Shown in pieces: positions 45,709-64,000 of a stretch of DNA of 64,000 bases; position 1 is the first letter of the stretch; the number at the start of each line of letters is the position of its first letter. Source of the stretch: Synechococcus sp. WH 7805 (GTDB taxonomy: Bacteria; Cyanobacteriota; Cyanobacteriia; PCC-6307; Cyanobiaceae); contig NZ_CH724168.1 of the NCBI RefSeq assembly GCF_000153285.1, forward strand, positions 2,333,455-2,397,454, read 5' to 3'. The notes under the pieces were generated by a model. That model had not been told where the DNA came from. It worked only from the letters and a program-made list of their open reading frames with translations, and searched no databases. The translations under genes and the position numbers were made by a program.

Positions 45709-45711
45709 TTC

Positions 45712-46866: not shown

Positions 46867-46902
46867 GCAGCGGGTCATGCTTTTGGCAGTTGCCCCAAAC
46901 CA

Positions 46903-47222: not shown

Positions 47223-47465
47223 CAAAGGTCGCCAGCATTAAACGAAGAATCAACAAACAATTCAACGACCAAACTTGCCTAATCGAATTTTACCCAGGAC
47301 TCGGCCTTGCTGGCTTCATCGAAAAGCCAGTGACTGAAGGGGGGAAGATTGGAAGACCCTGGGAAGTAGATTGTCGATATCAATCACTTTGCAAAACGTA
47401 AATTCATTTTTCATGAATTACCGTTAGGCGTAGTATATATTCAACAACAGCAGTTGCCGTGTCAA

Positions 47466-48278: not shown

Positions 48279-48352
48279 ACTAGCTTGAAAGTAATATTGA
48301 AACCGTTGTGATTCCCGAGAGTCTGTTGCAACTTCTGCTTGAAAAAATGAGA

Positions 48353-48500
48353 GACAGGCTGGTCGGTTGGCACTAGGGGTAAGCCTCTAACCCCAGTTAT
48401 TGCAATGTTTCTGATTCGAAGTGATCAAGATCACAGGCAGCTTTGACACAGGTCATCAAGTGGACCAGTCATTCCGGAGATGGTGTGTCCATCGAAGGGA
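48353..48500 (+). repeat. second leader-type repeat, copy b
   Basis: Same ordered blocks as 47083-47222: GACAGGCTGGTCGGTTGG, AAGCCTCTAACCCCAG, TTGCAATGTTTCTG, AAGTGATCAAGATCA, GGCAGCTTTGACACAGGTC, GGAGATGGTGTG. It ends 39 bases before the RTX gene and so is the likely promoter/leader of that gene. Confidence 0.6.
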
Positions 48501-48538
48501 GCAATCCCAACGACACAAACCACTCACGCTGCATCACC

Positions 48539-49327: not shown

Positions 49328-49771
49328 GTCTTTTTAAAGAATCCTAGCAAAATCCGTCGCTACTGATGCAATTGCTAACGATGGCAAAATATCCGGGTGC
49401 ATGCATGCTCTCTGATAACAAATTGTGGAAAAGAATGAATGTATAAACATTCACCCCGTCAGTAATGGCGGGGTTTTGTTGCTTGTGCAGCAGCAAGGTA
49501 TCAGTCTTGCCATAGCTTGAATACAGAAGTGTTGGGAGGCCACCGATGGACTTTTTGACTGAGACCAATTACCACCAGGCATGGAGCAATCATGCTGACA
49601 GCAAACAGATGCATCAACACCATAGGAAAAGTCACTGAGCTGGATTTGGTGTTGTCGAACCCTTTCAATGCATGCGTCACGATATTTCAATCTCTGGAAT
49701 AGATCTCGGTCAAAACTGCTGCGAGTACTCATGGAATTGAGTGAAAAATGCCACAGACAATGGTGTAGCAG
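49328..49771 (+). other. intergenic region after RTX gene
   Basis: Apart from the terminator at 49454-49480, no supported gene. Long reverse-strand frames between 49451 and 49924 cross the small gene at 49772 and have no motif. Otherwise nothing seen. Confidence 0.5.
49454..49480 (+). terminator. family terminator (3' element without body)
   Basis: CCCCGTC-AGTAAT-GGCGGGG then TTTTGTTG. The stem and loop are identical to the terminator at 57600, and it is preceded by ACATTCA as in the full elements, but the CCC-GNAA-GGG body is absent. It ends the RTX gene about 130 bases after its stop. Confidence 0.8.
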
Positions 49772-49978
49772 ATGGCGGCGGTGCTGGATCAAGCTGAAAC
49801 GGACTTCTTGCTTCTGATGAGTTCCGGCTTGCCCGAGAAAGTGGCAGCGGCTTTCGGGATCCTGCTTCGGTTGCTGTTCTGCAGCTCGAAACGGCTTCAA
49901 GCGGGCATGGCGTTGGATCAGCACGTTGATGACTCAAAGGTGATGTGTCAGAGCAACGTGAGCACCAAACAGTGTTAG
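49772..49978 (+). CDS. small helical protein, paralog of 58944 gene
   Basis: A 68-residue protein sharing VLDQAETD, LPEKVAAAFG, LLRLLFCSSKRLQAGMALD with the reverse-strand gene at 58944-59192, including the divergent start. The N-terminal 12 residues of that gene are missing here and the tail is different, so this copy may be truncated. Function unknown; the shared core is an amphipathic helix pair. Confidence 0.5.
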   Translation: MAAVLDQAETDFLLLMSSGLPEKVAAAFGILLRLLFCSSKRLQAGMALDQHVDDSKVMCQSNVSTKQC

Positions 49979-50199
49979 CGGCAGGTTGGCCAAGTCCTTT
50001 TGATGTGACCACCTTCAATGCCTTTCACCGCTTCAACGAGGAACGTGATGGCGCAGCTTGGTGTCCAAGACGCCAAGACGGCAATACGCTTCACTATCTC
50101 CGCAAATCACCCACCAGCAAACAGGCGGTGTGGGATCTGAATGCTGCTGTTCGCGCCTGGACTCAGGCCAAAAAATCAGTGAAGCCATTCAGTGATTGA
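49945..50199 (+). CDS. small protein, weakly supported
   Basis: An 84-residue GTG-start frame with AGWPSPFDVTTFNAFHRFNE and KQAVWDLNAAVRAWTQAKK; coherent soluble composition, no known motif. It overlaps the preceding small gene by 34 bases and the following TTG frame by four. Confidence 0.4.
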   Translation: MSEQREHQTVLAAGWPSPFDVTTFNAFHRFNEERDGAAWCPRRQDGNTLHYLRKSPTSKQAVWDLNAAVRAWTQAKKSVKPFSD

Positions 50200-50381
50200 C
50201 CGCATCGATTCACGCGGAGCAGATTTACAAGCTGCACAATTTTCTGTGGATTGAGATCAACAAGGCCGTGTTGCCCGTCTGTGTCGACGAGAGGGCCAAT
50301 AAGGCTCTGAACTCCCACTTGATCAGTTGGCGCAATGGCAGCGTCATCATTGATCTGTCGGTTGTCCGCGAGGTGCCGTGA
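50196..50381 (+). CDS. small protein, weakly supported
   Basis: A 61-residue TTG-start frame (YKLHNFLWIEINKAVLPVCV) beginning inside the stop of the previous frame (TTGA). No motif. Listed because the coupling and composition are plausible. Confidence 0.3.
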   Translation: MTASIHAEQIYKLHNFLWIEINKAVLPVCVDERANKALNSHLISWRNGSVIIDLSVVREVP

Positions 50382-50538
50382 TCCTGGACATCATCGGTTT
50401 CTTTTGCTCGTTGGCCTTCTGGCGTTGGGGGCCTGGGCTTTGTGGAAGCTTTTCAGAGCACTCTGGGGGCTTACTTCCCGGCGTCCACCCAGCGAGCGCG
50501 ATCAGCAGGCACTGGATTGGTGGACAAAGAAGCCCTAA
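50335..50538 (+). CDS. small single-TM protein, weakly supported
   Basis: A 67-residue frame containing a strong hydrophobic helix (FLLLVGLLALGAWALWKLFR) and a polar tail ALDWWTKKP. The true start may be a later TTG near 50362. Two other frames overlap it, and the membrane helix is the reason to prefer this one. Confidence 0.38.
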   Translation: MAASSLICRLSARCRDPGHHRFLLLVGLLALGAWALWKLFRALWGLTSRRPPSERDQQALDWWTKKP

Positions 50539-50762
50539 CCACCAATCGCTCGAGGAAAGCGCGGTCGCTGCTGTCATCGCGTCTACAGAGGCGTTTCTTG
50601 CGCAAGATGATCAAAGGTCCTACCCCCCGCAAAACTTTTGATTTATCTGTAGTATTTAATTATATTGCGCTGACTGCAGGCGAAGGTAGGTTATCAAGCC
50701 TATTTCATGAAGTTGAGTAAAAAGGTCGTGCGACGATGGCAATAACGTAACCCTCCTAAATA

Positions 50763-50921
50763 TTGGATCTACAGATTCCCTTTAGATTCTTTGGTGCGTT
50801 GCTGGTGGGCTCTGCCCTTCTTCCAATGGCCAAAAATCCTAAAGAGTTTGCCTTGCTGGGAGGCACTTTCCTCCTTGGACTTGGAGCGCTTGAATTAGCG
50901 CTCAGAGTAGGGGGCTTTTAG
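50763..50921 (+). CDS. 52-residue membrane protein
   Basis: TTG start directly after an in-frame stop; DLQIPFRFFGALLVGSALLP, a polar turn AKNPKEF, then ALLGGTFLLGLGALELALRV. Two hydrophobic helices and no alternative frame make a real small membrane protein likely. It converges with the GAF gene, overlapping by four bases. Confidence 0.5.
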   Translation: MDLQIPFRFFGALLVGSALLPMAKNPKEFALLGGTFLLGLGALELALRVGGF

Positions 50922-51637
50922 CTACGCCCTTCTACTGCTTGCCAGGCATCCAGAACCTCAGGGAAATGCTGCTCAATGCATGCATCGCAGATTCCATGCG
51001 TGAAATTCAAATTTGATCTTTGAGAAAGATACTTGTCAAGATGCATCCAATTTCCGTCTTTATCCTTGGCCTTCCTGCAGTAAGAGCATGTTGAAATCAT
51101 CCTATTGTTTTCAGTATGCGCGCAAAAAGATTCAATCAAATTGATCGATTTTTTTCGCAGCTCCAGAAACGAAACCACCTGCCTTGCGAGAGCTTTCATT
51201 ACACCACATTCTTTATCGGTTAATTGGCGGGGTACTCGATCAATGACGCATAGTGTGCCCACTCTCAATGCCTCACTATTTTCAAGAGGAAAACCTGCAT
51301 AAAGCCTTATCTTTGGGTCGCCACAAACAAGTGGATTGTCATGGAAACGATCATCCATCAGTGCGTCTGGAACAATGAGTGGGTCGGATGAATGAATTGC
51401 GTGGGCGCAAAAAGACCAATCTCTGGGCGTCTCTTCTATGTCAACCCCTACTTTTGACTTGAACCACTGTCTGTCAGTATCAACTAAGCTAAGAAGAGCA
51501 ATTGGGGTTGAGCATACACTTGATGCAATTTTGGTAATGTCGTCATATGACTGCTCTGGTTTTGTACCAAGAATTTTGTACTCATTGAGAGCGCTTAGTC
51601 GCTGCGCTTCGTTTCCTGGATACGTTGCGGCAGGCAA
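50918..51637 (-). CDS. GAF-domain protein with C-terminal Cys motif
   Basis: A 239-residue protein. The N-terminal GAF domain (about 14-165) reads RLSALNEYKILGTKPEQSYD, IALLSLVDTDRQWFKSKVG, SFCAHAIHSSDPLIV and YAGFPLENSEALRVGTLCV. The C-terminal part has STCSYCRKAKDKDGNW and FTHGICDACIEQHFPE, the layout of the CxYCKK-GxW-HGICPEC module often attached to sensor proteins. No kinase or cyclase domain follows, so it would be a stand-alone sensor. Ligand unknown. Confidence 0.85.
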   Translation of the reverse strand: MPAATYPGNEAQRLSALNEYKILGTKPEQSYDDITKIASSVCSTPIALLSLVDTDRQWFKSKVGVDIEETPRDWSFCAHAIHSSDPLIVPDALMDDRFHDNPLVCGDPKIRLYAGFPLENSEALRVGTLCVIDRVPRQLTDKECGVMKALARQVVSFLELRKKSINLIESFCAHTENNRMISTCSYCRKAKDKDGNWMHLDKYLSQRSNLNFTHGICDACIEQHFPEVLDAWQAVEGRS

Positions 51638-51671
51638 AGCAATTCCTTCTATTTTTCAATGTTAGATCTAA

Positions 51672-52136
51672 TTGAATGATGGTCAATCTAATAACATAAA
51701 AGTTATCTTGCCTGGCACTGAAGCAGGCAATGTGCATTTCTTAGCTTATAAGTTTGACGAGTTGGGGTTGGTGAATGACCAGCTGGAGGCAGTGATTGGC
51801 GTGAGCGGCGCAGCAAGCTCGTAAAGGGCATCTGATGGCCGACCTTCTCAGCACCCTGCCTTGCTCGCCTGGCTTCATGCCTGCGAGGTGACAGACCACA
51901 TGGATGTTGTCTTCGCCCCAGAAGACGATCGGTGGGCTCACGTTCACAACGCTGTTGATTGCTTGCGCCACGCCTTCTCAATGGAGATTCCCGTTGCGGT
52001 TCGGGCTCCCTGCCTGTAGAAGGCAGGTGACGCCGATGTCTTCAAGAGTTGGCTTGCTTTTGGCGTTCAAGACCTGGATAGCGAGTCAGGGGAGGAGCTA
52101 ATAGCGACAGGCTCGCGGGGTGCAGCCAATTTTTAA
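51672..52136 (+). pseudogene. relic reading frame with two in-frame stops (copy 4 of DVFKAWL family)
   Basis: One frame stays protein-like across a TAA (51822) and a TAG (52017): VILPGTEAGNVHFLAYKFDE, then HPALLAWLHACEVTDHMDVV, FAPEDDRWAHVHNAVDCLRH, and finally ADVFKSWLAFGVQDLDSESG. The last block matches the DVFKAWL relics. Alternatively 51672-51824 is a separate 50-residue TTG gene. GC is higher than the neighbouring LRR gene. Confidence 0.45.
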
Positions 52137-52294
52137 ATCTTTAGCTCAGTGAGGGGAGTAAGGCGGTTGAAATCAGGAGCTACTTTATCGCTTGCAGACT
52201 GCGTCGCATTGATCTCAGGTCTCGCGACTTATTTCCTCTGCTCAACACAAACCGATTTCTTTATGGCAGAGTCACTAATATTGAGGCTTATAAT

Positions 52295-54103
52295 TTGATT
52301 GAAGAGAAGAGTCTAGATATGTTAAGTCCAAGCAGCTTTACTTTTATCGACTCACAGGCTTTTTGGCTAAGTGGCACTCAAAGTCTTGTCATCTCCGATA
52401 GTGTCACTTCCATTGGTAGTAGTGCGTTTTTAGACGATCTATTGACAAGCGTTGTCATTGGCAATGGCGTCACTTCTATTGGCATCGATGCATTTAGAAA
52501 CAATCAACTCACTAGCGTTGTCATCCCCGATAGCGTTATTTCCATTGGTGGCAATGCATTTTCAGACAATCTATTGACTAACGTTGTCATTGGCAATGGC
52601 GTCACTTCTATTGGCATCGATGCATTTAGAAATAATCAACTCACTAGCGTTGTCATCCCCGATAGCGTTACTTCCATTGGTGGCAATGCATTTTCAGACA
52701 ATCTATTGACTAACGTTGTCATTGGCAATGGCGTCACTTCTATTGGCATCGATGCATTTAGAAATAATCAACTCACTAGCGTTGTCATCCCCGATAGCGT
52801 TACTTCCATTGGTGGCAATGCATTTTCAGACAATCTATTGACTAACGTTGTCATTGGCAATGGCGTCACTTCTATTGACTTCGATGCATTTAGAAATAAT
52901 CAACTCACTAGCGTTGTTATCCCCGATAGCGTTGCTTCCATTGCTGGTAATGCATTTGCAGATAATCTATTGACAAGTGTTGTCATTGGCAATGGCGTCA
53001 CTTCTATTGGCTTCGATGCATTTAGAAATAATCAACTCACTAGCGTTGTTATCCCCGATAGCGTTGCTTCCATTGGTGGCAATGCATTTGCAGGTAATCT
53101 ATTGACAAGCGTTGTCATTGGCAATGGCGTCACTTCTATTGGCTTCGATGCATTTAGAAATAATCAACTCACTAGCGTTGTCATCCCCGATAGCGTTGCT
53201 TCCATTGCTGGCAATGCATTTTCAGACAATCTATTGACAAGCGCTGTCATTGGCAATGGCGTCACTTCTATTGGCTTGGATGCATTTAGAAATAATCAAC
53301 TGTCTAGCCTTATCATCCCCGATAGCGTTACTCGAATTGGTGCTAGAGCATTTGCAAATAATCAGCTAACCAGAGTTGTCATCCCCGATAGCGTCACTAT
53401 GGTTGCTGGTGATGCATTTGATCCCAGCGTAGAATTGATTTTTGGCGATGGCTTGATAGGTGATAATTTTGACAATGCTCTAATTGGTGGAGCTGCTAAT
53501 GACTTTGTTTTCGGGAAGCTCGGAGATGACTTTATTGATGGTGGAGAAGGTAACGATACTGCTCAATTTACGGAGGCGAAGAATCGAGTTGACCTCCGCA
53601 ATGCAGCGCTTCAGGTCACTGGTGATGGTGTTGATCAGTTGATTTCTATTGAAAATGTAAATGGGGGGGCTGGTAATGACAAAATCAAGGGTAATAGGTT
53701 TGCCAATATTCTTAATGGAGAAGATGGTAATGATAAATTAACTGGTCTTGGAGGTGGTGATGTTTTGTCTGGAGAGGGAGGTAATGACAAGTTGTTTGGT
53801 GGCAGCGGGGACGACAAATTATTTGGTGGAAATGGAAAAGATAAATTAAAAGGCGATAAAGGTATTGATCAACTTTGGGGTGGAGAAGGTAGGGACATCT
53901 TTGAAGTCACCACAGGCGATGGTTACGACATCATCGAAGACTTCACTGATAGAAAGGATCGTATCTTCTTAGGGGTAATTTCTTCAGATGTTGATCTTAT
54001 TGTGCTCGGACGGGATATTCTCATTGTTCAGCAATTAGACGCACTGGCTCTTGTCAAAAATGGCGCTGGCAAACTTCAGTTGGAAGGTGAGTTTCTCATC
54101 TGA
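52295..54103 (+). CDS. LRR_5 (BspA-like) repeat protein with RTX C-terminus
   Basis: A 602-residue protein. About 16 LRR_5 units of 22 residues (consensus LTSVVIPDSVTSIGGNAFSD) run from about residue 28 to 380, then RTX nonapeptides (GGAGNDKIKGN, GEGGNDKLFGGSGDDKLFGG) from about 390 to 535, and a non-repetitive end. This suits a type-I-secreted calcium-binding adhesin. TTG at 52295 gives MIEEKS, like MIEERV of the gene at 60099; ATG at 52319 is the alternative. AT-rich and foreign-looking. Confidence 0.8.
   Translation: MIEEKSLDMLSPSSFTFIDSQAFWLSGTQSLVISDSVTSIGSSAFLDDLLTSVVIGNGVTSIGIDAFRNNQLTSVVIPDSVISIGGNAFSDNLLTNVVIGNGVTSIGIDAFRNNQLTSVVIPDSVTSIGGNAFSDNLLTNVVIGNGVTSIGIDAFRNNQLTSVVIPDSVTSIGGNAFSDNLLTNVVIGNGVTSIDFDAFRNNQLTSVVIPDSVASIAGNAFADNLLTSVVIGNGVTSIGFDAFRNNQLTSVVIPDSVASIGGNAFAGNLLTSVVIGNGVTSIGFDAFRNNQLTSVVIPDSVASIAGNAFSDNLLTSAVIGNGVTSIGLDAFRNNQLSSLIIPDSVTRIGARAFANNQLTRVVIPDSVTMVAGDAFDPSVELIFGDGLIGDNFDNALIGGAANDFVFGKLGDDFIDGGEGNDTAQFTEAKNRVDLRNAALQVTGDGVDQLISIENVNGGAGNDKIKGNRFANILNGEDGNDKLTGLGGGDVLSGEGGNDKLFGGSGDDKLFGGNGKDKLKGDKGIDQLWGGEGRDIFEVTTGDGYDIIEDFTDRKDRIFLGVISSDVDLIVLGRDILIVQQLDALALVKNGAGKLQLEGEFLI
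52442..53365 (+). repeat. seven tandem 132-bp repeats
   Basis: Seven in-frame copies of 132 bases (two LRR_5 units each), starting at 52442, 52574, 52706, 52838, 52970, 53102 and 53234. Copies 2 and 3 are identical over the whole unit and others differ by few bases, so expansion is recent. Not a CRISPR: no spacers. Confidence 0.95.
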
Positions 54104-54605
54104 TATTTAGTAAAATCACATGCTGCGCTCATCGCCACACCAACAATCGCGCAGAAGATGGAATCGTTGTGGAGTAAGCCCATGACCTGTACTCAATATA
54201 TGAGTCGATCCTGCGGGCTGGAGTGCTGCCTGGCAAAAGCCGAGCAGTTTGCCTCTTTCGATATCAATGAGCCCCTATTCGCCGAGTTCTGCCCCTTGGT
54301 TCAGCGCTATGGAGAGATGGAGCTCATCCCACGTCCTGACGCCAAGTCGGAGTCCACTGGTTGCAGCGCTTCGTAGGATCTTTATCCTGCTGCAGCCGTC
54401 TCTGGCGCAGATTGCAGACAACCATGATTTAGCAGTGCTGATTCACTCCATAGGTGAATTGTTGACAGGTCATGTAGATACAGGATCCCCTAAAGCTCCT
54501 CAGATCCTTGTCCTCAAGAAAGTCCCAAACCCCCATAGAGGCCTATGGTTCCACATCTGTACAATTCATTCACTGGGTAGTAGTCAAGAAATCTCAACAT
54601 CTAAA
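54104..54605 (+). other. region with fragmentary frames
   Basis: A frame at 54158-54376 (AKAEQFASFDINEPLFAEFC) continues in character in another frame after about 54375 (LQPSLAQIADNHDLAVLIHS), which may be a frameshifted small gene. Support is weak and no family is recognised. Confidence 0.3.
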
Positions 54606-54700
54606 TGGGGAAAGGGGCAATTGGCTGAAATCGGGTGGAGAAATCCCCCAGTTGGGGGAAGTGCATTCAGGCGAGAACAGCGAAGGTGAATACAGATGAA
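54606..54700 (+). promoter_or_regulatory. shared 5' leader, copy C
   Basis: TGGGGAAA at 54606 and TGGGGGAAG at 54653 (47 apart) around CTGAAATCGGG, then GAGAACAGCGAAGGTGAATAC. Lacks the GGAGG/CCTCC hairpin. Upstream of the small exported protein at 54709. Confidence 0.68.
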
Positions 54701-54708
54701 ATAGCACT

Positions 54709-54924
54709 ATGAGAGCGATGTCCCTGATGGCTGCCTTCGTTGGAATCGTGGTGATTACGGGTTGCATTGGTGGAACCCTAGCCGTGAGTGAACCGACACC
54801 GCAGATTGCCAACGAACGTGGCTCGCTTGATGCAGCAAACGACAAGCTGCGGAAAGCCTGTTTGACTGGTTCTTTTTTTGGAAGAGGGCTATTTGAACAG
54901 GGTGCTTGCCATCAATACCGCTAA
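54709..54924 (+). CDS. small exported (lipoprotein-like) protein
   Basis: A 71-residue protein: signal MSLMAAFVGIVVITGCIGG with a possible lipobox (ITGC), then an acidic mature part with KLRKACLTGSF and ending EQGACHQYR. The two C-terminal Cys and basic-aromatic end recall the VTCR...YCR peptides. Preceded by leader C; the shared 3' element is not found after it, but a long inverted repeat is at 55002. Confidence 0.65.
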   Translation: MRAMSLMAAFVGIVVITGCIGGTLAVSEPTPQIANERGSLDAANDKLRKACLTGSFFGRGLFEQGACHQYR

Positions 54925-55001
54925 GTGATCACTTTGGTTGACTTCAAGAGAACGAATTTGGGCCGTTTGGGGGATGCGCCTTCCCCACCCTTTGAGTGAC
55001 G

Positions 55002-55059
55002 GGGGAATTGGGTAATCCGGCGGCCCCCAGTGAAATGTCCGCAGGATTACCCATTCCCC
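55002..55059. repeat. 17-bp inverted repeat
   Basis: GGGGAATTGGGTAATCC (55002-55018) and GGATTACCCATTCCCC (55044-55059) pair over 16 bases with one extra T in the left arm, around a 25-base loop. It could terminate transcripts from either side (no T-run) or be a remnant of a small mobile repeat. Confidence 0.7.
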
Positions 55060-55160
55060 GTGTGCCGTTGGAGTATCAGGTTTGAACTGCACGATCTTCT
55101 GCTGGTCAGCAATGGCCAACTATGGTCTCCACTCGGATTAAGTCGGGTTGGATACCAAAA

Positions 55161-55331
55161 TCAGCCAGCTACAGCGGAAATGCTGTACGGCGCTTCAGGC
55201 AAGCTTGTGGGCATTGGATCGAGCTTGCCTGAAGCCAATGCTTTGGCGCGGACGTACATCTGGCTTGATGTGGCACCAGCTGCTTCCATTGCCTTTGCGA
55301 CGATGTCCCAGTTGCGAACTTCGGTAGACAT
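55161..55331 (-). CDS. 56-residue protein, unknown
   Basis: MSTEVRNWDIVAKAMEAAGA, then SSQMYVRAKALASGKLDPMP and a Pro/Ser-rich end. The helical first half resembles short DNA-binding or leader-like proteins but no family is named. A 14-base perfect inverted repeat (GCTTCAGGCAAGCT, 55192-55205 and 55222-55235) lies inside its 3' half. Confidence 0.55.
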   Translation of the reverse strand: MSTEVRNWDIVAKAMEAAGATSSQMYVRAKALASGKLDPMPTSLPEAPYSISAVAG

Positions 55332-55513
55332 TTGAGGCTGATTGAAGGAGTAGAAACTATCGCCAGCCAACTGACCTGGCCGTGATGGTGAAAACCGCCA
55401 AGGGACCGAACACACGAAACGTGAAAGTTCACCGCCTACGACCTGGCTTCTCCAGATGTTCGAATGGATTTGGTCGGTAACGGATCACTTTTCACCCAGT
55501 AGGTCGTTCCACG

Positions 55514-55678
55514 TCACTGATCTATCGCAACAGAGCGGCTTGAGAGGGCGCGGCTCTTTCGACTCAGGGCTGCACCCGCGTCGAGCATTTCGCTCGGCTT
55601 CAGGTTCGCATCCGCGATGGCCAGGGCCTGGGCTTCTGCTGCATCCATAACCCGGCGTTGCCGAACAGACCTGTCCAT
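55514..55678 (-). CDS. 54-residue helical protein, unknown
   Basis: MDRSVRQRRVMDAAEAQALA, then IADANLKPSEMLDAGAALSR. AGGGAGA precedes the ATG at 55678 at usable spacing, which is why this start is chosen over 55708. Charged and helical; function unknown. Confidence 0.5.
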   Translation of the reverse strand: MDRSVRQRRVMDAAEAQALAIADANLKPSEMLDAGAALSRKSRALSSRSVAIDQ

Positions 55679-55842
55679 GATTTCTCCCTTGAATGTTTTG
55701 CGGGCCACCCATCAGGACTCGCAGGAGCGATGCGGCCAGCTACTCCCCCTAACGCCCCCTCTTAGTCTGCCGAGGGCTCCAGTGGTCAAGTTATTGGGAC
55801 ATCTCCCGAAGGAACAGCACAGGTGAGCGCGAGAATGCAGAG

Positions 55843-56019
55843 ATGGATGTCGAACAGCTGGAACAGCTAGCCGCTGTGATCGTAACGGCAGGGCTAGTAG
55901 CAGGAAATTTCCTATTGTTCACTCCCTGGCGGGATGGTCAGGATCCGAGGCAACGACAACCTGAACGCTTAATACCTCAGAACGAATCGATTCATCGGCC
56001 TGGTACGCCAGGTATCTAG
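55843..56019 (+). CDS. 58-residue single-TM protein
   Basis: MDVEQLEQLAAVIVTAGLVA then GNFLLFTPWRDG, a membrane helix of about 20 residues followed by a polar Gln/Arg/Pro-rich tail. No upstream leader of the shared type was found, but the shared 3' element follows at 56173. Function unknown. Confidence 0.5.
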   Translation: MDVEQLEQLAAVIVTAGLVAGNFLLFTPWRDGQDPRQRQPERLIPQNESIHRPGTPGI

Positions 56020-56066
56020 TTCACGTCGATGGGCAGACCCCTCGGATCGGATGGGGGAATTGAGCG

Positions 56067-56180
56067 TCAACCCCGCCGGTGCAGCTCTGATCGGAATTGG
56101 TCAGCACCTCGAGCTCCCTCCATAGCGAGCATCTGCTGCAGGCCCAAGCAACTCCACCGATCACCTTTTTGGGGAAGCCT
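56067..56180 (-). pseudogene. C-terminal relic of the 59208 gene family
   Basis: The reverse frame reads GDRWSCLGLQQMLAMEGARG and DQFRSELHRRG, matching GDQRSCLTLQQM...RFRSELHRK of 59208-59402. The N-terminal half is missing and the frame runs into 3' element D, so this is a fragment. Confidence 0.5.
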
Positions 56181-56309
56181 GATGCCATGAAAGCGGGGAT
56201 GAGAGCAATACAAGACCCGAAAGGGGAAAGCAGGGGGCGTTGTGGTGTCGCTATCGATCTCCCGACAAAACCTCACGGACACCACCCCGTCATCAATGGC
56301 GGGGTTTTT
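56173..56309 (+). repeat. shared 3' element with terminator, copy D
   Basis: GAAGCCTGATGCCATGAAAG, GAGAGCAATACAAGACCC, CCC-GAAA-GGG hairpin, GCAGGGGGCG, TGTCG...CGACA, and terminator CCCCGTC-ATCAAT-GGCGGGG (56285-56304) with TTTTTG. The longer 5' part is shared with copy E. An ACGGACACCA insertion replaces ATT before the terminator. Confidence 0.8.
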
Positions 56310-56904
56310 GTTGGTGGAACGCAAGACGTCCTTTTTTCACTCAGTCAGCAGTCCAAGCCACGCTACGGAGTGCTGACGTCGAGCAGTGCACTGATCCAGA
56401 AAGACCTTCAGACAGCCCCAGGAGTGTGGTCAGCGCGATAAGCCGGGCGTTTGAATGGGGCAGTGTTCGTGGGCCATCTGACGTAAGACAGCATCTGTTC
56501 CGTTTGTGTTGTGAGACTCTCTGTAGACAGCCAGTTGATTGTTTAATTCTTGGCAGCTCTTGCGTTTGAGATCCATTTGATCAGTCCGTGAACTGATCTA
56601 ACCATGGCCATCGTTGAACAGCAGTTGAAGTATCAGATAGCACTTTTTGTCTCTCAATTTCGCTACGGGAAAACCTGCCCATCCTGCCAATGCGCATTTG
56701 CTCAGATGCGGCAAAGCCCCAACCAGCACCACATCCGCAAGGCACCCAGCACGGCTTGCGGCTTCAGGGCTACAAACGCCACGTGAAGGTGGCTTGATCA
56801 TGATGTTCACGGAAGGGGTATTCCTTAAGCCAGTGACCCTGTCCACTGGAACAACTCTGAAGTTCCTTCAGCGCGGGAATGCTCTCTGGAGTTTCATCTG
56901 AACC
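56310..56904. other. no convincing gene
   Basis: A frame from the ATG at 56604 (MAIVEQQLKYQIALFVSQFR) is open for 60 codons with CPSCQC and another short frame ends at 56901 (FTEGVFLKPVTLSTG). Neither has a ribosome site or match; they may be remains of one broken gene. Confidence 0.3.
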
Positions 56905-57117
56905 ATGCCCATCGACCTCAGGTGCCCCTTTCGCTGCTGCAGGAACTGCTCCTAGCGCGTGCAATGACCCTGATGTCTTCAAGGCATGGCTATCTCTAGG
57001 CATCGAACGGCTTGGAAAGGTTGCTGTCATTGAGCGATGGTGGTCTGGATGGACCCAATCCTCACGACAGACGAAGCGGACAGGCTGGTGGGTTGGCACC
57101 TAGGAGTCATCCTCTGA
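56905..57117 (+). pseudogene. relic of DVFKAWL family gene, copy 2
   Basis: Begins ATGCCCATCGACCTC like copy 1, then frameshifts; PDVFKAWLSLGIERLGKVAV is readable in one frame and WMDPILTTDEADRLVGWHLG in another, ending at TGA 57115-57117. At least two indels separate it from a functional frame. It preserves the Trp where copy 1 has a stop. Confidence 0.6.
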
Positions 57118-57123
57118 CCCAGT

Positions 57124-57230
57124 TGGGGGAGGCAGACGGCTGAAATCGGGCAAATAAATTCCTTAGTTGGGGGAGGTGCTTTTTAGTGAGAACGGCGATG
57201 GTGAATACATCGGAGGGACGACCTCCACTA
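57124..57230 (+). promoter_or_regulatory. shared 5' leader, copy E
   Basis: TGGGGGAG at 57124 and 57168 (44 apart), CTGAAATCGGGCAAA between, GAGAACGGCGATGGTGAATA, then GGAGG-GACGA-CCTCC (57212-57226). The most complete copy. It begins 6 bases after relic copy 2. Confidence 0.75.
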
Positions 57231-57485
57231 CTCCAAACTCAAAGGAAACTCTTCAACGCAATCGCTGCTGCTGCAATCGCTGGTACTGCACTTATTGCCA
57301 GCACTACTCCTGCATCTGCGCAGTATTACGGAAATCGCACTTATACATTCCAACAGCGTACTAATGGATTCCGAGTCCGTGACAACTATGGCAACAGCAG
57401 TATTTTTACCAATCGTGGAGGCGGTGGTTACAACTTTAGAAATTCCAATGGTGGTTATGGCTCTATTCGCTTCCGCAACTATTGA
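57198..57485 (+). CDS. glycine/asparagine-rich secreted protein
   Basis: About 95 residues with a signal peptide (LFNAIAAAAIAGTALIASTT, PASAQ) and a mature chain of Gly, Asn, Tyr, Arg and Phe (NRGGGGYNFRNSNGGYGSIR). The only ATG is at 57198 inside the leader, so here the GGAGG/CCTCC bases are translated; the start is uncertain. Low complexity suggests a surface or extracellular protein. 3' element E follows. Confidence 0.65.
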   Translation: MVNTSEGRPPLLQTQRKLFNAIAAAAIAGTALIASTTPASAQYYGNRTYTFQQRTNGFRVRDNYGNSSIFTNRGGGGYNFRNSNGGYGSIRFRNY

Positions 57486-57497
57486 TCAACTTCGTCG

Positions 57498-57625
57498 GGA
57501 AGCCTGAAGCCATGAAAGCGGGGCTGAGAGCAATACAAGACCCGAAAGGGGAAAGCAGGGGGCGTGGGTTGTCGCTATCGATCTCCCGAAAAGCATTCAC
57601 CCCGTCAGTAATGGCGGGGTTTTTG
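57498..57625 (+). repeat. shared 3' element with terminator, copy E
   Basis: GGAAGCCTGAAGCCATGAAA, GAGAGCAATACAAGACCC, CCC-GAAA-GGG, GCAGGGGGCG, TTGTCGCTATCGATCTCCCG (second arm CGAAA, so the TGTCG stem is broken here), terminator CCCCGTC-AGTAAT-GGCGGGG (57600-57619) plus TTTTTG. Confidence 0.82.
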
Positions 57626-57706
57626 TTGGTCAAGGGACAGCGTCATCAGCAAGTGTGACAACTCAAACTTAATAAGTGACAATGAAAGGGTTTAAGCAAA
57701 ATTCTA

Positions 57707-58195
57707 ATGGCTTTGTCGAGCAACCCAAGAATTTCCAAGGTGTTATTACAGCTATCATGGATGGTTGGAGGCATTGGATTCTGGAATGCTTTTAACTCCA
57801 TTGGTTCTGGAGATGTTGGCGCTTCTACTCAATGGATATCAGCGTGGGCTGTCGGCGGCGTAGGTCTGTTGTCCTTTGTTCGGCATGCCGTCTTTCACAG
57901 AAGTGATGCGGTGCGCATGGGCTGGGTCTATGGACACCGAAACGACTTTCAGCTTGAAGTTGGTTTCGCAAATCTCGCGTGGGGTGTGGTAGCAATCGTT
58001 GGACTGATCCAAGGATGGGATGCACAAGCCCTCGGAGCATTGATCTTACTTGTCGGCATTTATATGTTGCAGGCGGCGGTCTTACACCTTCTTGAGCTAA
58101 AGGAAGCCACAAATCCCAGATACGGAAGCAAGTTTGTAAACCTAGCGTATTCCATTTGCTTGTTTTGGTTTGGAATCAAGGCTCTCTCTGTATGA
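57707..58195 (+). CDS. DUF6790-like integral membrane protein
   Basis: A 162-residue protein with four hydrophobic helices and the block MGWVYGHRNDFQLEVGFANL in the second loop, which resembles DUF6790. No catalytic motif. No shared leader upstream, although 3' element E ends 82 bases before it. Confidence 0.7.
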   Translation: MALSSNPRISKVLLQLSWMVGGIGFWNAFNSIGSGDVGASTQWISAWAVGGVGLLSFVRHAVFHRSDAVRMGWVYGHRNDFQLEVGFANLAWGVVAIVGLIQGWDAQALGALILLVGIYMLQAAVLHLLELKEATNPRYGSKFVNLAYSICLFWFGIKALSV

Positions 58196-58202
58196 ATCCA
58201 AT

Positions 58203-58344
58203 GGATTCTTGAGTTGCGTATATTTGACTGATGCGAACCTGACTGACGTGAACCTGCTGCCCAATGCCTGGAGCACCACAACTTGTCCCAATGGCACCAG
58301 AAACGAGTGTGTTTTGCCCTGTACAGCAGTGCAACTGTTGGGTT
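58203..58344 (+). pseudogene. pentapeptide-repeat protein C-terminal relic
   Basis: Just after the preceding stop a frame reads LTDANLTDVNLLPNAW then TCPNGTRNECVLPC to a TGA at 58342-58344. A(N/D)LxxANL is the pentapeptide repeat pattern and the Cys-rich end is common in cyanobacterial members. Upstream repeats are missing, so it is a fragment. Confidence 0.5.
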
Positions 58345-58794
58345 GAATGTAGTGATTATTTCTACACCGGAAATTGGCAGGGGATGCAGTGTCTAATGTG
58401 ACAATTAATGGCTTGAGTCACGCTTCACCCCGCGAGCATTGGTGGAGTTTGTAATTGCCCTCTTAGAGCGGGGAATGCTTTCAGCAGTTGCCCTCTTCGG
58501 ACACGGTGTCTGCGGCCCAGGCAAGCGGTAGCGTCATGGTCGAAGCGTTGGCCCTCCGGCGCCAGAAGTCACGCGCAGAAAATCTTGCCGCGCATATTTC
58601 GAGCGGACCAACCCATGGGGCAGGCACCCCGCAAACGGAGCACCCATGAGGGCTGCTTTGCCTTCCCTGCCAGGTAGGTGAGTGCGAATGCAGTACGACT
58701 CCGGGAAAAGCTGGGTGAGGGCAAGGTGAGTGCAGATGCCCTTGCGCATTAAAAAAGGGACCTTGGAAATCCTGAGATCCTTTTGTGTAACTGA
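58345..58794. other. no convincing gene; degenerate terminator
   Basis: About 450 bases. TTCACCCCGCGAGCATTGGT at 58430 resembles the family terminator in decayed form. A 38-codon frame at about 58537 has no support. GC rises here. Confidence 0.4.
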
Positions 58795-58857
58795 CGCCCC
58801 CTGATGGATTCGAACCATCGACCGACTGCTTAGAAGGCAGCCTTTTGTCCAGTTGTA
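58795..58857 (-). other. tRNA-Arg(UCU) 3' fragment (possible attachment site)
   Basis: On the reverse strand GCTGC-CTTCTAA-GCAGT forms an anticodon arm with TCT, followed by GATGG-TTCGAAT-CCATC (T-arm) and AGGGGGC as the 3' acceptor strand. The 5' acceptor GCCCCCT is absent and the D-stem does not pair, so it is not a functional tRNA. Fragments like this arise where elements integrate into tRNA 3' ends. Confidence 0.6.
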
Positions 58858-58928
58858 GCAGCGCTTTTCCTCGTCATACCAAGGGGTTGTCCGATTGGGG
58901 GATTTTGGGGGTGGACAGAAATAGGGTC

Positions 58929-58963
58929 AAAGTGGACAAGGATTTAGCGGTTTTGTCCACTTT
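58929..58963. repeat. 11-bp perfect inverted repeat
   Basis: AAAGTGGACAA and TTGTCCACTTT around a 13-base spacer; related GTGGACA and TTGTCC words occur on both sides. It overlaps the 3' end of the 58944 gene. Could be its terminator or a recombinase or regulator site. Confidence 0.6.
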
Positions 58964-59192
58964 CTTGTCCCGTGTCCGGCTGCCTTGGAGGCAGTTGGTC
59001 AGCCCCGTCGTGCAGATCCAATGCCATGCCCGCCTGAAGGCGTTTTGAGCTGCAGGACAGCAAACGAAGCAGGAACCCAAAAGCCGCCGCCACTTTCTCG
59101 GGCTGGCCGGATCCCATCAGCTGATCGATGTCCGTCTCGGCTTGATCCAGAACCGCCAACGTCTGTAGCGACACCTCACGGGTGAAGGTCAT
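58944..59192 (-). CDS. 82-residue helical protein, family with 49772
   Basis: MTFTREVSLQTLAVLDQAET, then GSGQPEKVAAAFGFLLRLLS, CSSKRLQAGMALDLHDGADQ and a polar tail. A second copy, shortened at the N-terminus, is at 49772-49978, which supports a real gene. No known domain; likely a small regulatory or structural protein of the accessory region. Confidence 0.6.
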   Translation of the reverse strand: MTFTREVSLQTLAVLDQAETDIDQLMGSGQPEKVAAAFGFLLRLLSCSSKRLQAGMALDLHDGADQLPPRQPDTGQESGQNR

Positions 59193-59207
59193 CCTGCTCT
59201 TTCGGGT

Positions 59208-59402
59208 TCATTCAGTCTGCTGAGCCTTCCTGTGCAGTTCTGACCGAAACCGTCCAGCATCTCGAGACGCTTTTGGTGCAGCCATCTGCTGCAACGTCAG
59301 GCAACTCCGCTGATCACCCTCAGAACAACTCGCCTCAAGACGGGCCACCTTTGCTGCCATCAACTCCCGGCGCCGCTTAAGCGACCGCATCAAAGCCTGC
59401 AT
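59208..59402 (-). CDS. 64-residue charged helical protein
   Basis: MQALMRSLKRRRELMAAKVA, RLEASCSEGDQRSCLTLQQM, then RDAGRFRSELHRKAQQTE. A relic of the same family is at 56067-56180. It lies 15 bases upstream of the 82-residue gene on the same strand, so the two probably form a unit. Function unknown. Confidence 0.5.
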   Translation of the reverse strand: MQALMRSLKRRRELMAAKVARLEASCSEGDQRSCLTLQQMAAPKASRDAGRFRSELHRKAQQTE

Positions 59403-59587
59403 AGAGCGCGTGAAGGTTGAGGCATCTGAGGGTGCTGCTCTCGTGGCTGAGTGCGCTCCGCACGGACGAGTGATGGTGGCTCAGGCGCAGAAGACGTTGG
59501 CAGACCTAGAGGCTCTGGCGGTAATGGAGGAGCTAGTGGGCGAGATGTACGGCGCTGACTGACGTACCTGACTGCCTGCTGGACAGG

Positions 59588-59656
59588 ATGGACCCAATCT
59601 TCACGACAGACGAAGCGGACAGGCTGGTGGGTTGGCACCTAGGCGTGAGCCTCTAG
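59588..59656 (+). pseudogene. relic of DVFKAWL family, C-terminal 22 codons (copy 3)
   Basis: MDPIFTTDEADRLVGWHLGV then SL and TAG. The same end as copies 1 and 2; the preceding DVFKAWL part is absent. It retains an undamaged frame for this piece, so a 22-residue peptide is formally possible. Confidence 0.5.
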
Positions 59657-59981
59657 ACAGCTAATGGAGCCCAGTCCATCTCAATCACTAGAAGTCACAA
59701 TCAAAAAGAGGGGTAAGCCCCTCAGCCCACCCATCTGTCGTGACGCATTGAGAGCAACCGCTCTCGCATTTCAACTGTGCCCTAGCGAAGACCCCACTGC
59801 GGGTAGCAGAGAGCACTTTTAAGCATTAAGAACTAGCGGGAATGGTTCTCGTTTCGCCGAGGATGCGATTGGCGCGAGCACTGACTCAACCGCTCAGGGA
59901 GATGAACTAAAGCGGGTTCCCTCGCCCGCTCTCCTATCACGTCTTGATGGCAGACGCCTGGAAGTGAGCCTCTAGCTCGAC
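59657..59981. other. no gene seen
   Basis: The stretch between the relic and leader F holds no supported frame. GTGAGCCTCTAG occurs again at 59964, echoing the end of the DVFKAWL relics just before the leader, as at 57110. Confidence 0.5.
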
Positions 59982-60098
59982 TGGGGGAAAGAGACCCCTG
60001 AAATCGGGCAAAACAATCGCTCGGATGGGGGAAGTGCTTTCCGACGAGAACGGCGATGGTGTGTTCACGGGGCGAGAGCCTCACAATCCATTAGACAA
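59982..60098 (+). promoter_or_regulatory. shared 5' leader, copy F
   Basis: TGGGGGAAA at 59982 and TGGGGGAAG at 60026 (44 apart), CCTGAAATCGGGCAAA between, GAGAACGGCGATGGTGTGTT, then a degenerate GGGGCGAGAGCCTC in place of the GGAGG/CCTCC hairpin. It directly precedes the 804-residue protein. Confidence 0.75.
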
Positions 60099-62513
60099 AT
60101 GATTGAAGAAAGAGTTTTTATCGAAACGGCTTCAAGCAAAGACATTTACGCGAACACATTTAACGCAATCGGCAAGTATGGAGCACTAGTATCATCTTTT
60201 GATCTCAATCAAGGATTGCTTACTTGGGCTGAGGGTACATCATATGGTTATTCATCATCACACGAATTCAATGATTCACAAGTGTTTTCGTTTAATGTAG
60301 AGACAGGAGAAACTAGACACCTCTCAAAAGGCATTCAAAACATAGATTACTTTAGTTACTCGGTAGAAGAGTTCAAAAATCTCGATTTTGATATAATCCA
60401 TTCATGGAAAAACGCCTATAGACCCGTAACAAACGGAGAAGATGTATTCACCCAATTATATTATACATGGATCAGTCAACCCAATGATGCCAATCCAGAT
60501 TTAATTGGAGAATCAGTTCTTAAGTATGACGCGAGCGAATCAAAATATATCGGCGCTTCATCCGTTTACATTCCTAAAGACTTTACGTCTGATGGCGAGT
60601 ATGACCAAATCGGAGAACACCAGTATGCTGGAAATAATTTGGCAACGATTGTTTCAACAAATGGAATTTCTGACAATACAGTAGTCATTAATGAGCTTGA
60701 TTCAGGCGAGCAGCATATATTTACTGTTCCAGGCGCTGGAGATATCTTCGATAATAATCTTGACCACCAAAACAGATTGCATGTTTCGAGAAATGCCGTT
60801 GCCTGGCAGGACGACTGGGGCAGGGCGTTTTCGTTCAATACAGCAACCAATAAACTAACAACAATCGAAGGAACTGAAGAATACGGGTACGACGGTGGCA
60901 TTGATATTTTTCTTGCTAATGACAAATGGCTCATTACCGATGATATCTCTGGTCTAGGAGAGCGATATTCCTCTCACAATAATGTCGCAGTGGCAAATCT
61001 AGAGAGTGGACAGCAATTCGTTCTGTCCGCCAAAGACATCTTTCCAGGATACGATGACAGCCTGTACGAAGATTGGTATCTTGACCTTCCCATGTCTGGA
61101 ATTCAACTAGTCGGGAACAAGTTATTTGGCAGCGCACATGACGTTATAGACGATGTAATTGATATTGAAACCGGAGAGAAGCTCAGCATTGACAAGTGGG
61201 GAAGGAATAATGATTCATACTCATTCTTTGAGCATGATCTTGTAAGCGGTCAAACGACGATTATTGTTCCAGATAAATATCTGCTACCTTCTGGTACGAA
61301 GGCTGGCTGGGAGCCTGTAGCCACTGCTGATTTTGCATCTAACGATAAAAATGTAATCGCTTGGCAGGCTCATGCTGGCGATATGGATGGTTTTCAAATG
61401 CCAGAAAAAGAGTTCCTGCCTGGCTATGAAGCAAACGCAATTCTTGCTTACAATCTAGAAACAGGTGAGCTAAAAAGAATCACCGATGAAGTAATCCAAG
61501 ACAACCCATACACATCAATCGATGAGATAGTTATTGACGAATCTGGGAAAAATGTTGCAAATGGTTCGTTTATGGATTCAACGCTGACCGTTGCGGCAGA
61601 CATCTGGAATCCTGAATACGGAGAAGAGCTGGGTTATGCAAGGTATGTGATTAAGGCTCCCAATGCTGAAGCCAATGACGATAATCAATTCGCTGAATAT
61701 AGCTCGGCTTTAGTCAACCATCAATGGCAAGAAATTCAGCTTTCAGGAAACTATGTGAATCCAGTTGTCATTGCATCAGACCCAACACGTCGGGGTGGAG
61801 ATCCTGCTGTTGTGAGGCTGCGGAACATTGATTCTAACTCCTTCCAAATCAGGCTTCAAGAACCTAACTACAAAGATGGCTACCACACAAATGAAACGAT
61901 CTCTTACATGGTTGTTGAGGAAGGAACCTGGGAGCTATCAGATGGGACCAAGCTAGAAGCGGGTTCCTTGAGCACAAATAAGCTATCCACTAAAGGTCGT
62001 GAAACCGTCTCTTTCGACGATGCATTCGGATCTGATGACTCCCTCGCAGTGTTGTCTCAGACTCAAACCTTTTACGGAAGTGATTGGGTGACCACTCGGA
62101 CTGACAACATCACAGGCGATTCATTCCAAGTGATGATGCAGGAGGAAGAGAGGCTTAATGGCGGAGGTCATGTCACTGAATCAATTGGCTGGCTTGCAAT
62201 TGAGCAGGGTAGTGCAACCGATGGAGACACCATCATTGAAGGTGGCGTAACAGCTGACAGGTTTACCCATAAATCTGCGACGCACTCCTTTGATACAAGC
62301 TTTTCCTCCACGCCAACCTTGCTGACCAAACTTGATTCCTTTGATGGTAGAGATACAGCTAACTCAAGAATCCGATCAGTGAACGCCAATGGCTTTACAG
62401 CCTTGATCGCCGAAGAACAGTCTCGCGATAGAGAGATTTATCACACTACAGAATCCATTTCATATCTTGCGTTAGGTGCGGACTCTGGATTCTTAACAGG
62501 TGTAGCAATCTAA
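60099..62513 (+). CDS. large protein with beta-propeller-like repeats and H-type-lectin-like C-terminus
   Basis: An 804-residue AT-rich gene. The first 520 residues hold repeated strands such as FSFNVETGETRHLSKG, VVINELDSGEQHIFTV, VAVANLESGQQFVLS and LAYNLETGELKRIT, like TolB/WD40-type propellers. The last 250 residues contain three related modules with the pattern W(Q/V)xxxL, PVVIASDPTRRGGDPAVVRL, FQIRLQEP and ETISYMVVEEGTW, as in H-type lectin-like domains. No signal peptide; non-classical or type I export is inferred. Leader F and 3' element F flank it. Confidence 0.65.
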   Translation: MIEERVFIETASSKDIYANTFNAIGKYGALVSSFDLNQGLLTWAEGTSYGYSSSHEFNDSQVFSFNVETGETRHLSKGIQNIDYFSYSVEEFKNLDFDIIHSWKNAYRPVTNGEDVFTQLYYTWISQPNDANPDLIGESVLKYDASESKYIGASSVYIPKDFTSDGEYDQIGEHQYAGNNLATIVSTNGISDNTVVINELDSGEQHIFTVPGAGDIFDNNLDHQNRLHVSRNAVAWQDDWGRAFSFNTATNKLTTIEGTEEYGYDGGIDIFLANDKWLITDDISGLGERYSSHNNVAVANLESGQQFVLSAKDIFPGYDDSLYEDWYLDLPMSGIQLVGNKLFGSAHDVIDDVIDIETGEKLSIDKWGRNNDSYSFFEHDLVSGQTTIIVPDKYLLPSGTKAGWEPVATADFASNDKNVIAWQAHAGDMDGFQMPEKEFLPGYEANAILAYNLETGELKRITDEVIQDNPYTSIDEIVIDESGKNVANGSFMDSTLTVAADIWNPEYGEELGYARYVIKAPNAEANDDNQFAEYSSALVNHQWQEIQLSGNYVNPVVIASDPTRRGGDPAVVRLRNIDSNSFQIRLQEPNYKDGYHTNETISYMVVEEGTWELSDGTKLEAGSLSTNKLSTKGRETVSFDDAFGSDDSLAVLSQTQTFYGSDWVTTRTDNITGDSFQVMMQEEERLNGGGHVTESIGWLAIEQGSATDGDTIIEGGVTADRFTHKSATHSFDTSFSSTPTLLTKLDSFDGRDTANSRIRSVNANGFTALIAEEQSRDREIYHTTESISYLALGADSGFLTGVAI

Positions 62514-62560
62514 AGATCAGAAGCTAATCACACCTTCATTCTCAGATTATGTAAGGAGCT

Positions 62561-62675
62561 TGATGCCTAGAACGAGGGGCTGAAAGCCATACAAAACCCG
62601 CAAGGGAAAAGCAGGGGGCGTAGGTGTCGCTATCGATCTCCCGGCAAAACATTCACCCCGCCAGCAACGGCGGGG
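62561..62675 (+). repeat. shared 3' element with terminator, copy F
   Basis: CTGAAAGCCATACAAAACCC, CCC-GCAA-GGG, GCAGGGGGCG, TGTCG...CGGCA (one G-U changed pair that keeps the stem), and ATTCACCCCGCC-AGCAAC-GGCGGGGTGAAT, a 12-bp perfect stem (62651-62680) where T of other copies is C. There is no T-run afterwards. Confidence 0.8.
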
Positions 62676-62726
62676 TGAATGCTACTCATCCAGCACGCCA
62701 TCGGTGCTCTGACCGATAGCGCCTCT

Positions 62727-62805
62727 ACTGCTTGTTCTCCGCCAACCGTTGACGAATCTTCTGATCGATCAGATGACGCTCCTCCAGCTTCCGCTGTTGG
62801 TATCC
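62727..62805 (-). pseudogene. small gene fragment
   Basis: Reverse frame GYQQRKLEERHLIDQKIRQR then LAENKQ and stop, with a TAA immediately upstream. Coherent charged helix but no start; looks like the C-terminal remnant of a coiled protein. Confidence 0.35.
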
Positions 62806-62925
62806 TTAGCAGGTCTTCTATCCCATTGACTTGTCATTGATCAGTCGGTTCAGGCGGTAGGTTCTCAGCAAGGAGGCAATCATCATGGCGCTGTCCAACC
62901 TTCCAGGATCGTGATGAAAAATCAA

Positions 62926-63813
62926 CTAACTGTTTGCTGCAGATAAATAACTTTTTTTCAAGTAAATAGTCAATGCGAAAATGGCTGAAGGTGGAACAAG
63001 GTAAAGAAGCCAAACCAGACTTGGATAATTAATAATAACCGGGCCCAGGTGAATAATTGCTACTGCGGTAATTGTGCCGCCTACCGTTGACATTATCCTG
63101 TAGGTATGCTTAACAACTCTTTCTGTCTTGGAAATATTTTTACCAAAAAAGCCGCGAATGTCGTCATATCCAAAATATCCGAGCAATGCGCTTTGCCCAG
63201 ACAAAAGCAGTCCAGCTGCAAATGGTGTTAATGGAAAACCAATATCTTGTACATTCATGGGATCTATGAAAACTGCAAAAGGAATTAAGGCGATACCAAA
63301 AATACTGCCTAAAATCGCAAAGACTCCTGAAACCAGGTCAAGGTCAAGCTTTGGCTGTGGGAACGCTGCCCATCTGTAACCTGTCAATGCTCCATATGAA
63401 CCCGAAGCAAGTACTGTAAAAAGTAAGGCGCTATTTTCATTGATCATGACTCGGGTAGAGTAAACGCCAGAAGGATTTTGTATTACTAGGTAGAGCAATA
63501 AAACTGCAGCAGAAAGAAGTGCCAAAAACACTAGAAGCACTCCAAGCTTGCCATAAATTCTATGTTTTTCTGCTCCCTTCTTTGTAGCGATTGCGCCAAT
63601 GGACAAAACCACAAATATGCATGCACTTAGAGCATGTATGTGTTCTGATATTTGAGATAGTTTCATGTATATTCCAGTGTCTACGCTTGATGGGACTTCT
63701 TGAAGAGGTGCTAAGATTAATCGAGTCCCTAAAATTACTAGGGCTAGTATTCCGATAACTGAGATCAGTCTGGTTAAGGAGCTTGATTTTGTTTTCTCTA
63801 TGATTTGATTCAT
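62926..63813 (-). CDS. DUF2306-like multi-spanning membrane protein
   Basis: A 295-residue protein with about eight hydrophobic segments. EHIHALSACIFVVLSIGAIA then KKGAEKHRIYGKLGVLLVFL resembles the His-rich helix and RG(HR)xxGR block of DUF2306 proteins. ATG at 63813 (MNQIIEKTKSSSLTR) is preferred to 63906, which adds a non-membrane leader. AT-rich. Function unknown; the region 63907-64000 shows nothing more. Confidence 0.65.
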   Translation of the reverse strand: MNQIIEKTKSSSLTRLISVIGILALVILGTRLILAPLQEVPSSVDTGIYMKLSQISEHIHALSACIFVVLSIGAIATKKGAEKHRIYGKLGVLLVFLALLSAAVLLLYLVIQNPSGVYSTRVMINENSALLFTVLASGSYGALTGYRWAAFPQPKLDLDLVSGVFAILGSIFGIALIPFAVFIDPMNVQDIGFPLTPFAAGLLLSGQSALLGYFGYDDIRGFFGKNISKTERVVKHTYRIMSTVGGTITAVAIIHLGPVIINYPSLVWLLYLVPPSAIFALTIYLKKSYLSAANS

Positions 63814-64000
63814 GGTTGCTTGGTTGTAATTTTTATGTTGACAAAATGCCATTGCTTCTATTGTTGTGTCAACTGAATTTATAAAAAGTATATAAATCAT
63901 GGTCAAGGTTTGGGCAATTATGATCTTGCCCTTTTTGAAAATTGATTGCTTTTGTAAGGAATGTCAATGTGATTCAGCTTCGCCAAGTCTCTGGGACGCC

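Follow-up and report, generated by a model that had tools for sequence, protein, structure and literature searches.

Tycheposons were reportedly first described in Prochlorococcus, with seven tRNA genes and recombinase families. They are tRNA-bordered elements that carry a tyrosine recombinase and measure 4-200 kb (PMC10872708), and they have been listed among the proposed phage satellites (PMC11389934). Additive islands are exemplified by a Methylophilaceae tRNA-Lys island with repeated tRNA 3' ends (PMC10872708) and by an island of Prochlorococcus MIT9313 that holds five pseudo-tRNA-Met genes (PMC2784084). In Synechococcus, tRNA genes and mobility genes helped to border genomic islands (Dufresne et al. 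2008, PMC2441476), and an integrase has been reported in a Synechococcus phage, in passages that mention no tRNA site (PMC6157547). Here we analyse a tRNA-Arg(UCU) fragment that bounds one acquisition in a marine Synechococcus chromosome. The insertion of the island is an ordinary kind of event, whereas the layout of the ends of this and related islands is unusual.

The 28.6-kb island and its two ends

The window is the whole 64,000-nt stretch that was analysed (G000:C2:2333455-2397454), taken from the 2.63-Mb genome of Synechococcus sp. WH 7805 (G000). Minus-strand positions 58840 to 58791 of the window correspond to positions 29-74 of tRNA-Arg(UCU) and four bases downstream, with 50/50 identity (E = 5.9e-20), and a chance match is ruled out as the origin of the fragment because of this identity and E-value. 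As described previously, the piece keeps the anticodon arm, T-arm and 3' acceptor strand and has lost the 5' acceptor strand and the D-arm; the variable loop is kept too, and the outermost base of the 5' strand of the anticodon arm is changed. The interval first assigned to it, 58795-58857, stands in part: the tRNA portion occupies 58795-58840, whereas 58841 onward gives no tRNA match when aligned to the complete gene, and the identity extends instead to 58791, so that the core, which also includes the four bases beyond the 3' end, covers 58791-58840. No complete cloverleaf is present here, since ARAGORN calls no tRNA at 58.8 kb, its sole call in the window being tRNA-Gly at 35917-35987.

The preliminary description had predicted a whole tRNA-Arg(UCU) at the other end of an island, outside the window, and such a gene was found on the minus strand to the right of the window (G000:C2:2420868-2420941), where it is the only full-length match of the tRNA-Arg(UCU) query in the genome. 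Its 3' end proved identical to the fragment at all 50 positions compared. This second copy of the core (C2:2420864-2420913, outside the window) lies 28,619 bp from the first and is oriented alike, with the complete gene turning its 3' end towards the fragment. This order and orientation are as required of attL and attR of a single insertion. With its limits set by the two core copies, the island spans 28.6 kb (C2:2392245-2420913), of which the left 5.2 kb lie in the window (58841-64000) and the remainder continues outside it to C2:2420863. One end thus carries the complete tRNA and the other a direct repeat of its 3' part. The G+C content is 50.6% in the island, 49.3% in window positions 43313-58790, 60.6% in positions 1-43312 and 61.6% to the right of the tRNA.

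A tyrosine recombinase gene adjoins the complete tRNA (C2:2419459-2420721, 420 aa from ATG). A 464-aa form of the product, read from an upstream GTG, matches the PHROG integrase family phrog_1 (E = 8e-14), and its match to the Pfam model PF00589 (Phage_integrase; E = 1.9e-4) scores 21.7 bits, under the model cut-off of 27.1. The heptamer GTGGACA occurs 19 times in 108.5 kb, and six of these copies fall in two clusters of ~50 bp, one inside each island end. The first cluster (58911-58960) has copies at 58911, 58932 and 58954, the last of them inverted, and the second has three copies just inside the tRNA-side end (C2:2420739-2420784). Judging from their placement in the sequence, these repeats are probably arm-type integrase sites.

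The identical 3' ends, the integrase by the tRNA and the GTGGACA repeats inside both ends bear out the earlier view of the fragment as the far end of an island that integrated into a tRNA gene. Also in its favour are the low G+C of the island, the primase-helicase and topoisomerase-like genes near the integrase, the partial copies in 14 of 23 genomes of the genus, and a distance from the tRNA to shared genes that is greater than in relatives. Counting against it are the integrase score below the Pfam cut-off, a box before the core that departs from that of related elements, and the lack of a base-exact empty site among the matches listed. On balance we hold with high confidence that the fragment is attR, and the complete tRNA attL, of a 28.6-kb integrative island that entered tRNA-Arg(UCU) by means of the adjoining tyrosine recombinase. 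Partial-copy arrays in five relatives, and repeat families common to the island and the accessory DNA on its left, lend something to the idea that the fragment stems from an older insertion and that the 28.6 kb are a composite of at least two islands sharing the tRNA; no further partial copy was found between the two ends at the thresholds used, however, and the same GTGGACA repeats at both ends fit one element, which leaves a composite origin very improbable. A decayed duplicate of the tRNA-Arg gene with no integration at all would likewise be a partial gene without a complete cloverleaf, but it is rejected as the most improbable reading because 46/46 tRNA bases are unchanged, the identity breaks off abruptly within the anticodon stem, just as it does in other partial copies from the genus, and the integrase and the paired repeats mark both ends.

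For a single insertion at the tRNA, the most likely course is that inverted half-sites in the anticodon stem would have been bound by the integrase, with strand exchange taking place over the 7-bp anticodon loop; this loop and the flanking palindromic stem match the overlap and core-site organisation of tyrosine recombinases (PMC8371274). The island would have carried its own copy of the tRNA 3' half, because of which the tRNA at attL would have stayed whole, and the displaced 3' half would have been left at the far end as attR.

The fragment marks a border, with older accessory DNA on its left and the island on its right. It had been placed inside an accessory region, and accessory DNA does lie on both sides, but the fragment itself is the boundary between two such stretches. 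The left one (43313-58790) lies outside the island and separates the fragment from a block shared with relatives, which is homologous to window positions 33-43.3 kb and ends at ~43.3 kb. Among the matches listed, the near edge of this block is 4.6 kb from the complete tRNA in G006, 6.5 kb in G009 and 10.5 kb in G025, as compared with 44 kb in G000, and in these three genomes the block is situated 3' of the complete tRNA and is oriented correspondingly. The island makes up 28.6 kb of the distance in G000, and 43.3-58.8 kb is other accessory sequence. The matches listed contain no base-exact empty site, the 2.2 kb to the left of the fragment being poorly conserved, with mostly scattered partial matches.

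Several repeats were noted in the left accessory stretch. Near-identical tandem DNA repeats at 52295-54103 encode a 602-aa leucine-rich-repeat protein (LRR_5, E = 5e-98) with RTX-type repeats. A dispersed repeat of ~100 bp (CCCGCAAGGGAAAAGCAGGGGG...CTATCGATCTCCCGACA) is found at 45625-45720, 46767-46870 and 57494-57592 and recurs in variable regions across the genus; two of its copies come after short open frames with similar C-terminal peptides, and an Rfam search of window positions 40-64 kb gave no match at E <= 1, this repeat included. Another repeat, of ~250-310 bp (56867-57178), is present many times in G000, around C2:2.177-2.198 Mb and 2.380-2.405 Mb, and occurs in relatives as well.

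The part of the island that lies in the window encodes, on the minus strand, an 82-aa open frame that overlaps the repeats (58944-59192, no family match), followed by two cargo genes: a plus-strand gene for an 804-aa protein (60099-62513) with a weak match to the H-type lectin domain (PF09458, E = 3.3e-5, 24.4 bits versus a cut-off of 24), and a minus-strand gene for a 326-aa protein (62926-63906) with no Pfam match. Further cargo comprises a T5orf172-domain protein that matches the candidate defence family PDC-S57 (E = 7e-78), an HNH-type protein, and a leucine-rich-repeat/RTX-type protein (L010:3134-4969) resembling that encoded at 52295-54103. Near the integrase are genes for a 372-aa protein, which matches a PHROG named DNA topoisomerase (E = 2e-28), and for an 854-aa primase-helicase of the P4/D5 type, which exceeds the cut-off for D5_N (E = 2e-13) and reaches 52.5 bits against TIGR01613, below the cut-off of 108.7. 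Small proteins are encoded farther into the island from the integrase.

The tRNA-Arg(UCU) site across the genus

The site was surveyed in 23 genomes of the genus that are at least 95% complete, with partial copies counted at E <= 1e-9. Each genome has one copy of the complete tRNA-Arg(UCU), and 14 of the 23 contain partial 3' copies, 25 in total. Nineteen of these lie on the same strand as the complete gene, on its 3' side and within 40 kb of it. Of the remaining six, four are inverted and found in G016 at 230-241 kb from the complete gene, one lies in G009 at a distance of 893 kb, and one in G018 is 305 kb distant on the 5' side. The remote copies in G016 (C1:2487246 and 2717360-2728149, inverted) and G009 (C1:859062) are signs of chromosome rearrangement at island arrays. 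At least two partial copies stand in tandem in five genomes (G004, G010, G016, G018 and G024). In 13 of the 16 pairs within these arrays, the tRNA-proximal copy exceeds its partner in bit score (a hand count, with the order for G016 resting on an assumed inversion), as would be expected of newcomers entering at the tRNA. The tRNA-Arg(UCU) site is a genus-wide integration hotspot: throughout the genus, islands have entered repeatedly at this one tRNA gene, and the arrays of stubs record the order of their arrival.

Relatives of the G000 integrase are present in 12 of the 23 genomes, G000 counted, and those of G013 and G019 lie ~170 bp from tRNA-Arg(UCU), as in G000; a peptide-pattern scan of genome contigs and viral contigs returned none. 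A second integrase gene of G000, 30% identical, is located ~8 kb from a permuted-type tmRNA gene (L091:2657-2972; G000:C2:2182970-2184160) and possibly belongs to another island. The topoisomerase-like gene was detected in three of the 23 genomes, always at tRNA-Arg(UCU): in G000, immediately before a fragment in G018, and, as a piece containing a stop codon, immediately before a fragment in G006. The primase-helicase has relatives in two of the 23, again with G000 counted, and none in viral contigs by peptide patterns; it has 73 distant phage matches, with identities of 21-27% in the best 15 of the 73.

Layout of the island ends

A set of 28 fragment ends was taken by hand from 50 matches, after exclusion of 16 complete tRNAs and six matches to an inner repeat described below or to similar sequence. 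Many of the 28 have a box, about CATAGCCTTGAAAACCCTTGCTACGACTGG, that ends 8 nt before the core. In G000 the corresponding region lies on the island side of the core (58841-58880, minus strand, approximate limits set by eye); it holds a divergent version of the box found in other genomes, and neither a strict nor a shorter box pattern matches this genome. The strict pattern was found in one of 151 genomes of the family. The shorter one gave 10 hits, spread over 7 of 31 genomes of the genus, against 0 for a reversed control; nine of these hits immediately precede tRNA-Arg fragments, and the tenth precedes a decayed piece of the core. Since it also matched three of the 151 family genomes, all in other genera (G073 and G084 among them), the box is not confined to the genus. 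By eye, the fragment ends of G025 and G009 bear nearly the same repeats as the GTGGACA clusters, and other elements at tRNA-Arg(UCU) bear different motifs (AGTGGTCCC, ACTGGAGAC, CTGGATACAG, GTGTGGCCCAAA and TTTGCAAA).

Farther into the island, many fragment ends contain an inverted repeat, GACCRACTGC-N7-GCAGTYGGTC. The G000 copy (58974-59000), with anticodon-stem-like half-sites around a 7-bp spacer, has 2/20 mismatches to the consensus and lies 154 bp inward of the core, centre to centre. A scan of 498 kb at up to 4/20 mismatches, with distances given as scan values plus a 3-bp offset seen in self-matches, found the inner repeat in 15 of the 28 fragments at 137-166 bp from the core, centre to centre, 10 of them at 153-155 bp; four additional hits are not near a fragment end. 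Controls in which blocks of two bases were shuffled gave 0, 0, 0, 1 and 1 hits in 498 kb, a comparison that flatters the inner repeat because the scanned ends themselves had supplied its consensus and the control is simple. Five ends found later are a fairer test, and all five contain the inner repeat with 0-2 mismatches. Four of them were found by the box pattern (G032, G002, G015 and G010), with the inner repeat at 154-155 bp, and the fifth belongs to a 9-kb element at tRNA-Val(TAC) in G006 (L093:3237-12369), where it lies at 166 bp. The tRNA repeat of this element matches at 46/46 positions, its ends are laid out in the same way, and its integrase shares 49% identity with the G000 enzyme. 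The element possibly represents a change of target tRNA; its inner repeat is still tRNA-Arg-like and is therefore no copy of the element's own target.

The remaining 13 of the 28 fragments have no inner repeat at this threshold: three stub fusions, the fragments of G001, G012 and G013, one of G018 (5 mismatches), and six further ones in which it is weak or missing. In the stub fusions (G004 at 792976, G016 at 2717360 and G024 at 140168), sequence similar to the inner repeat, whose spacer is not that of the tRNA, joins the T-arm directly, and in G004 and G016 the preceding sequence resembles, by eye, that before the inner repeat elsewhere. In sequence, the fusions have the appearance of deletions that removed what lay between inner repeat and core.

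The half-sites of the inner repeat resemble those that flank the anticodon loop (GAGCAACTGC / GCAGTCGGTC). The spacer is as long as this loop, and the loop sequence itself occurs in 0 of 20 copies, which contain 18 different spacers; the mean information over these copies is 0.80 bits per spacer position versus 1.51 in the half-sites. The spacer is not free throughout, however, its sixth base being A in 20/20 copies, as in the anticodon loop, and its seventh mostly G. Most hits obtained with spacers of 3 and 11 are these sites read in a shifted register. Genome-wide, at 2 mismatches, the pattern is not generally enriched over a reversed-pattern control (11 versus 7 per strand in G000), and the count does not exceed that of the control in 12 of 23 genomes, both among the matches listed.

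Such a repeat could also fold into a 10-bp stem capped by a 7-nt loop, and open frames pass through it or end near it, as might suit a transcription terminator or other RNA hairpin with no role as an integrase site. Pair counts are no better than those of shuffled sequences: pairing is 84.5% versus 84.1% with shuffled partners (214 of 500 shuffles were at least as high) and the covariation score was reached by 126 of 500 shuffles, so that a covarying hairpin is rejected. A run of T is not regularly present 3' of the fragment-end copies inspected, and the likeness of the half-sites to those of the anticodon stem also speaks against a terminator or hairpin, which we regard as unlikely but worth keeping in view.

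We infer from the half-sites that the inner repeat would be a second integrase-binding site. On this basis we propose tentatively, as a possibility somewhat short of even, that the islands at tRNA-Arg(UCU) share an att design consisting of the core, element-specific arm repeats and a second recombinase-type site ~154 bp inside attR, kept even in the element that targets tRNA-Val. In this design the integrase would bind the second site but would not recombine it with the tRNA. The putative second site may order the complex or resolve dimers of the element. Were the inner repeat to recombine with the core, the arm could be lost and the island locked in place, and three of the 28 fragments look like products of such an exchange. 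We know of no other att design that has an inner repeat beside core and arm repeats.

Islands whose tRNA stub has decayed could be located and delimited with the help of the shared end layout, and one such decayed end was found in this work. If the inner repeat is an integrase site, these ends would also allow a direct test of how one integrase family changes its arm motifs, and once its target tRNA, while the rest is kept.

Comparison with known elements

The island shares with P4-type phage satellites an integrase at a tRNA and a primase-helicase of the P4/D5 type, but no packaging, capsid-redirecting or virion structural gene was recognised among the 10 island proteins scanned with PHROGs and those scanned with Pfam. 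As in the additive islands at Methylophilaceae tRNA-Lys (PMC10872708) and MIT9313 tRNA-Met (PMC2784084), the region contains several 3' tRNA pieces in five relatives studied here; G000 differs in its one partial copy, and the passages on these islands in the two papers make no mention of an inner inverted repeat. The closest likeness is to tycheposons, in the tRNA border, the tyrosine recombinase, the cargo, a size of 28.6 kb that falls within 4-200 kb, and a picocyanobacterial host. The island is thus a tRNA-targeted element of a known, tycheposon-like kind, the likeness being drawn by border, recombinase and size as they are given in the definition in PMC10872708.
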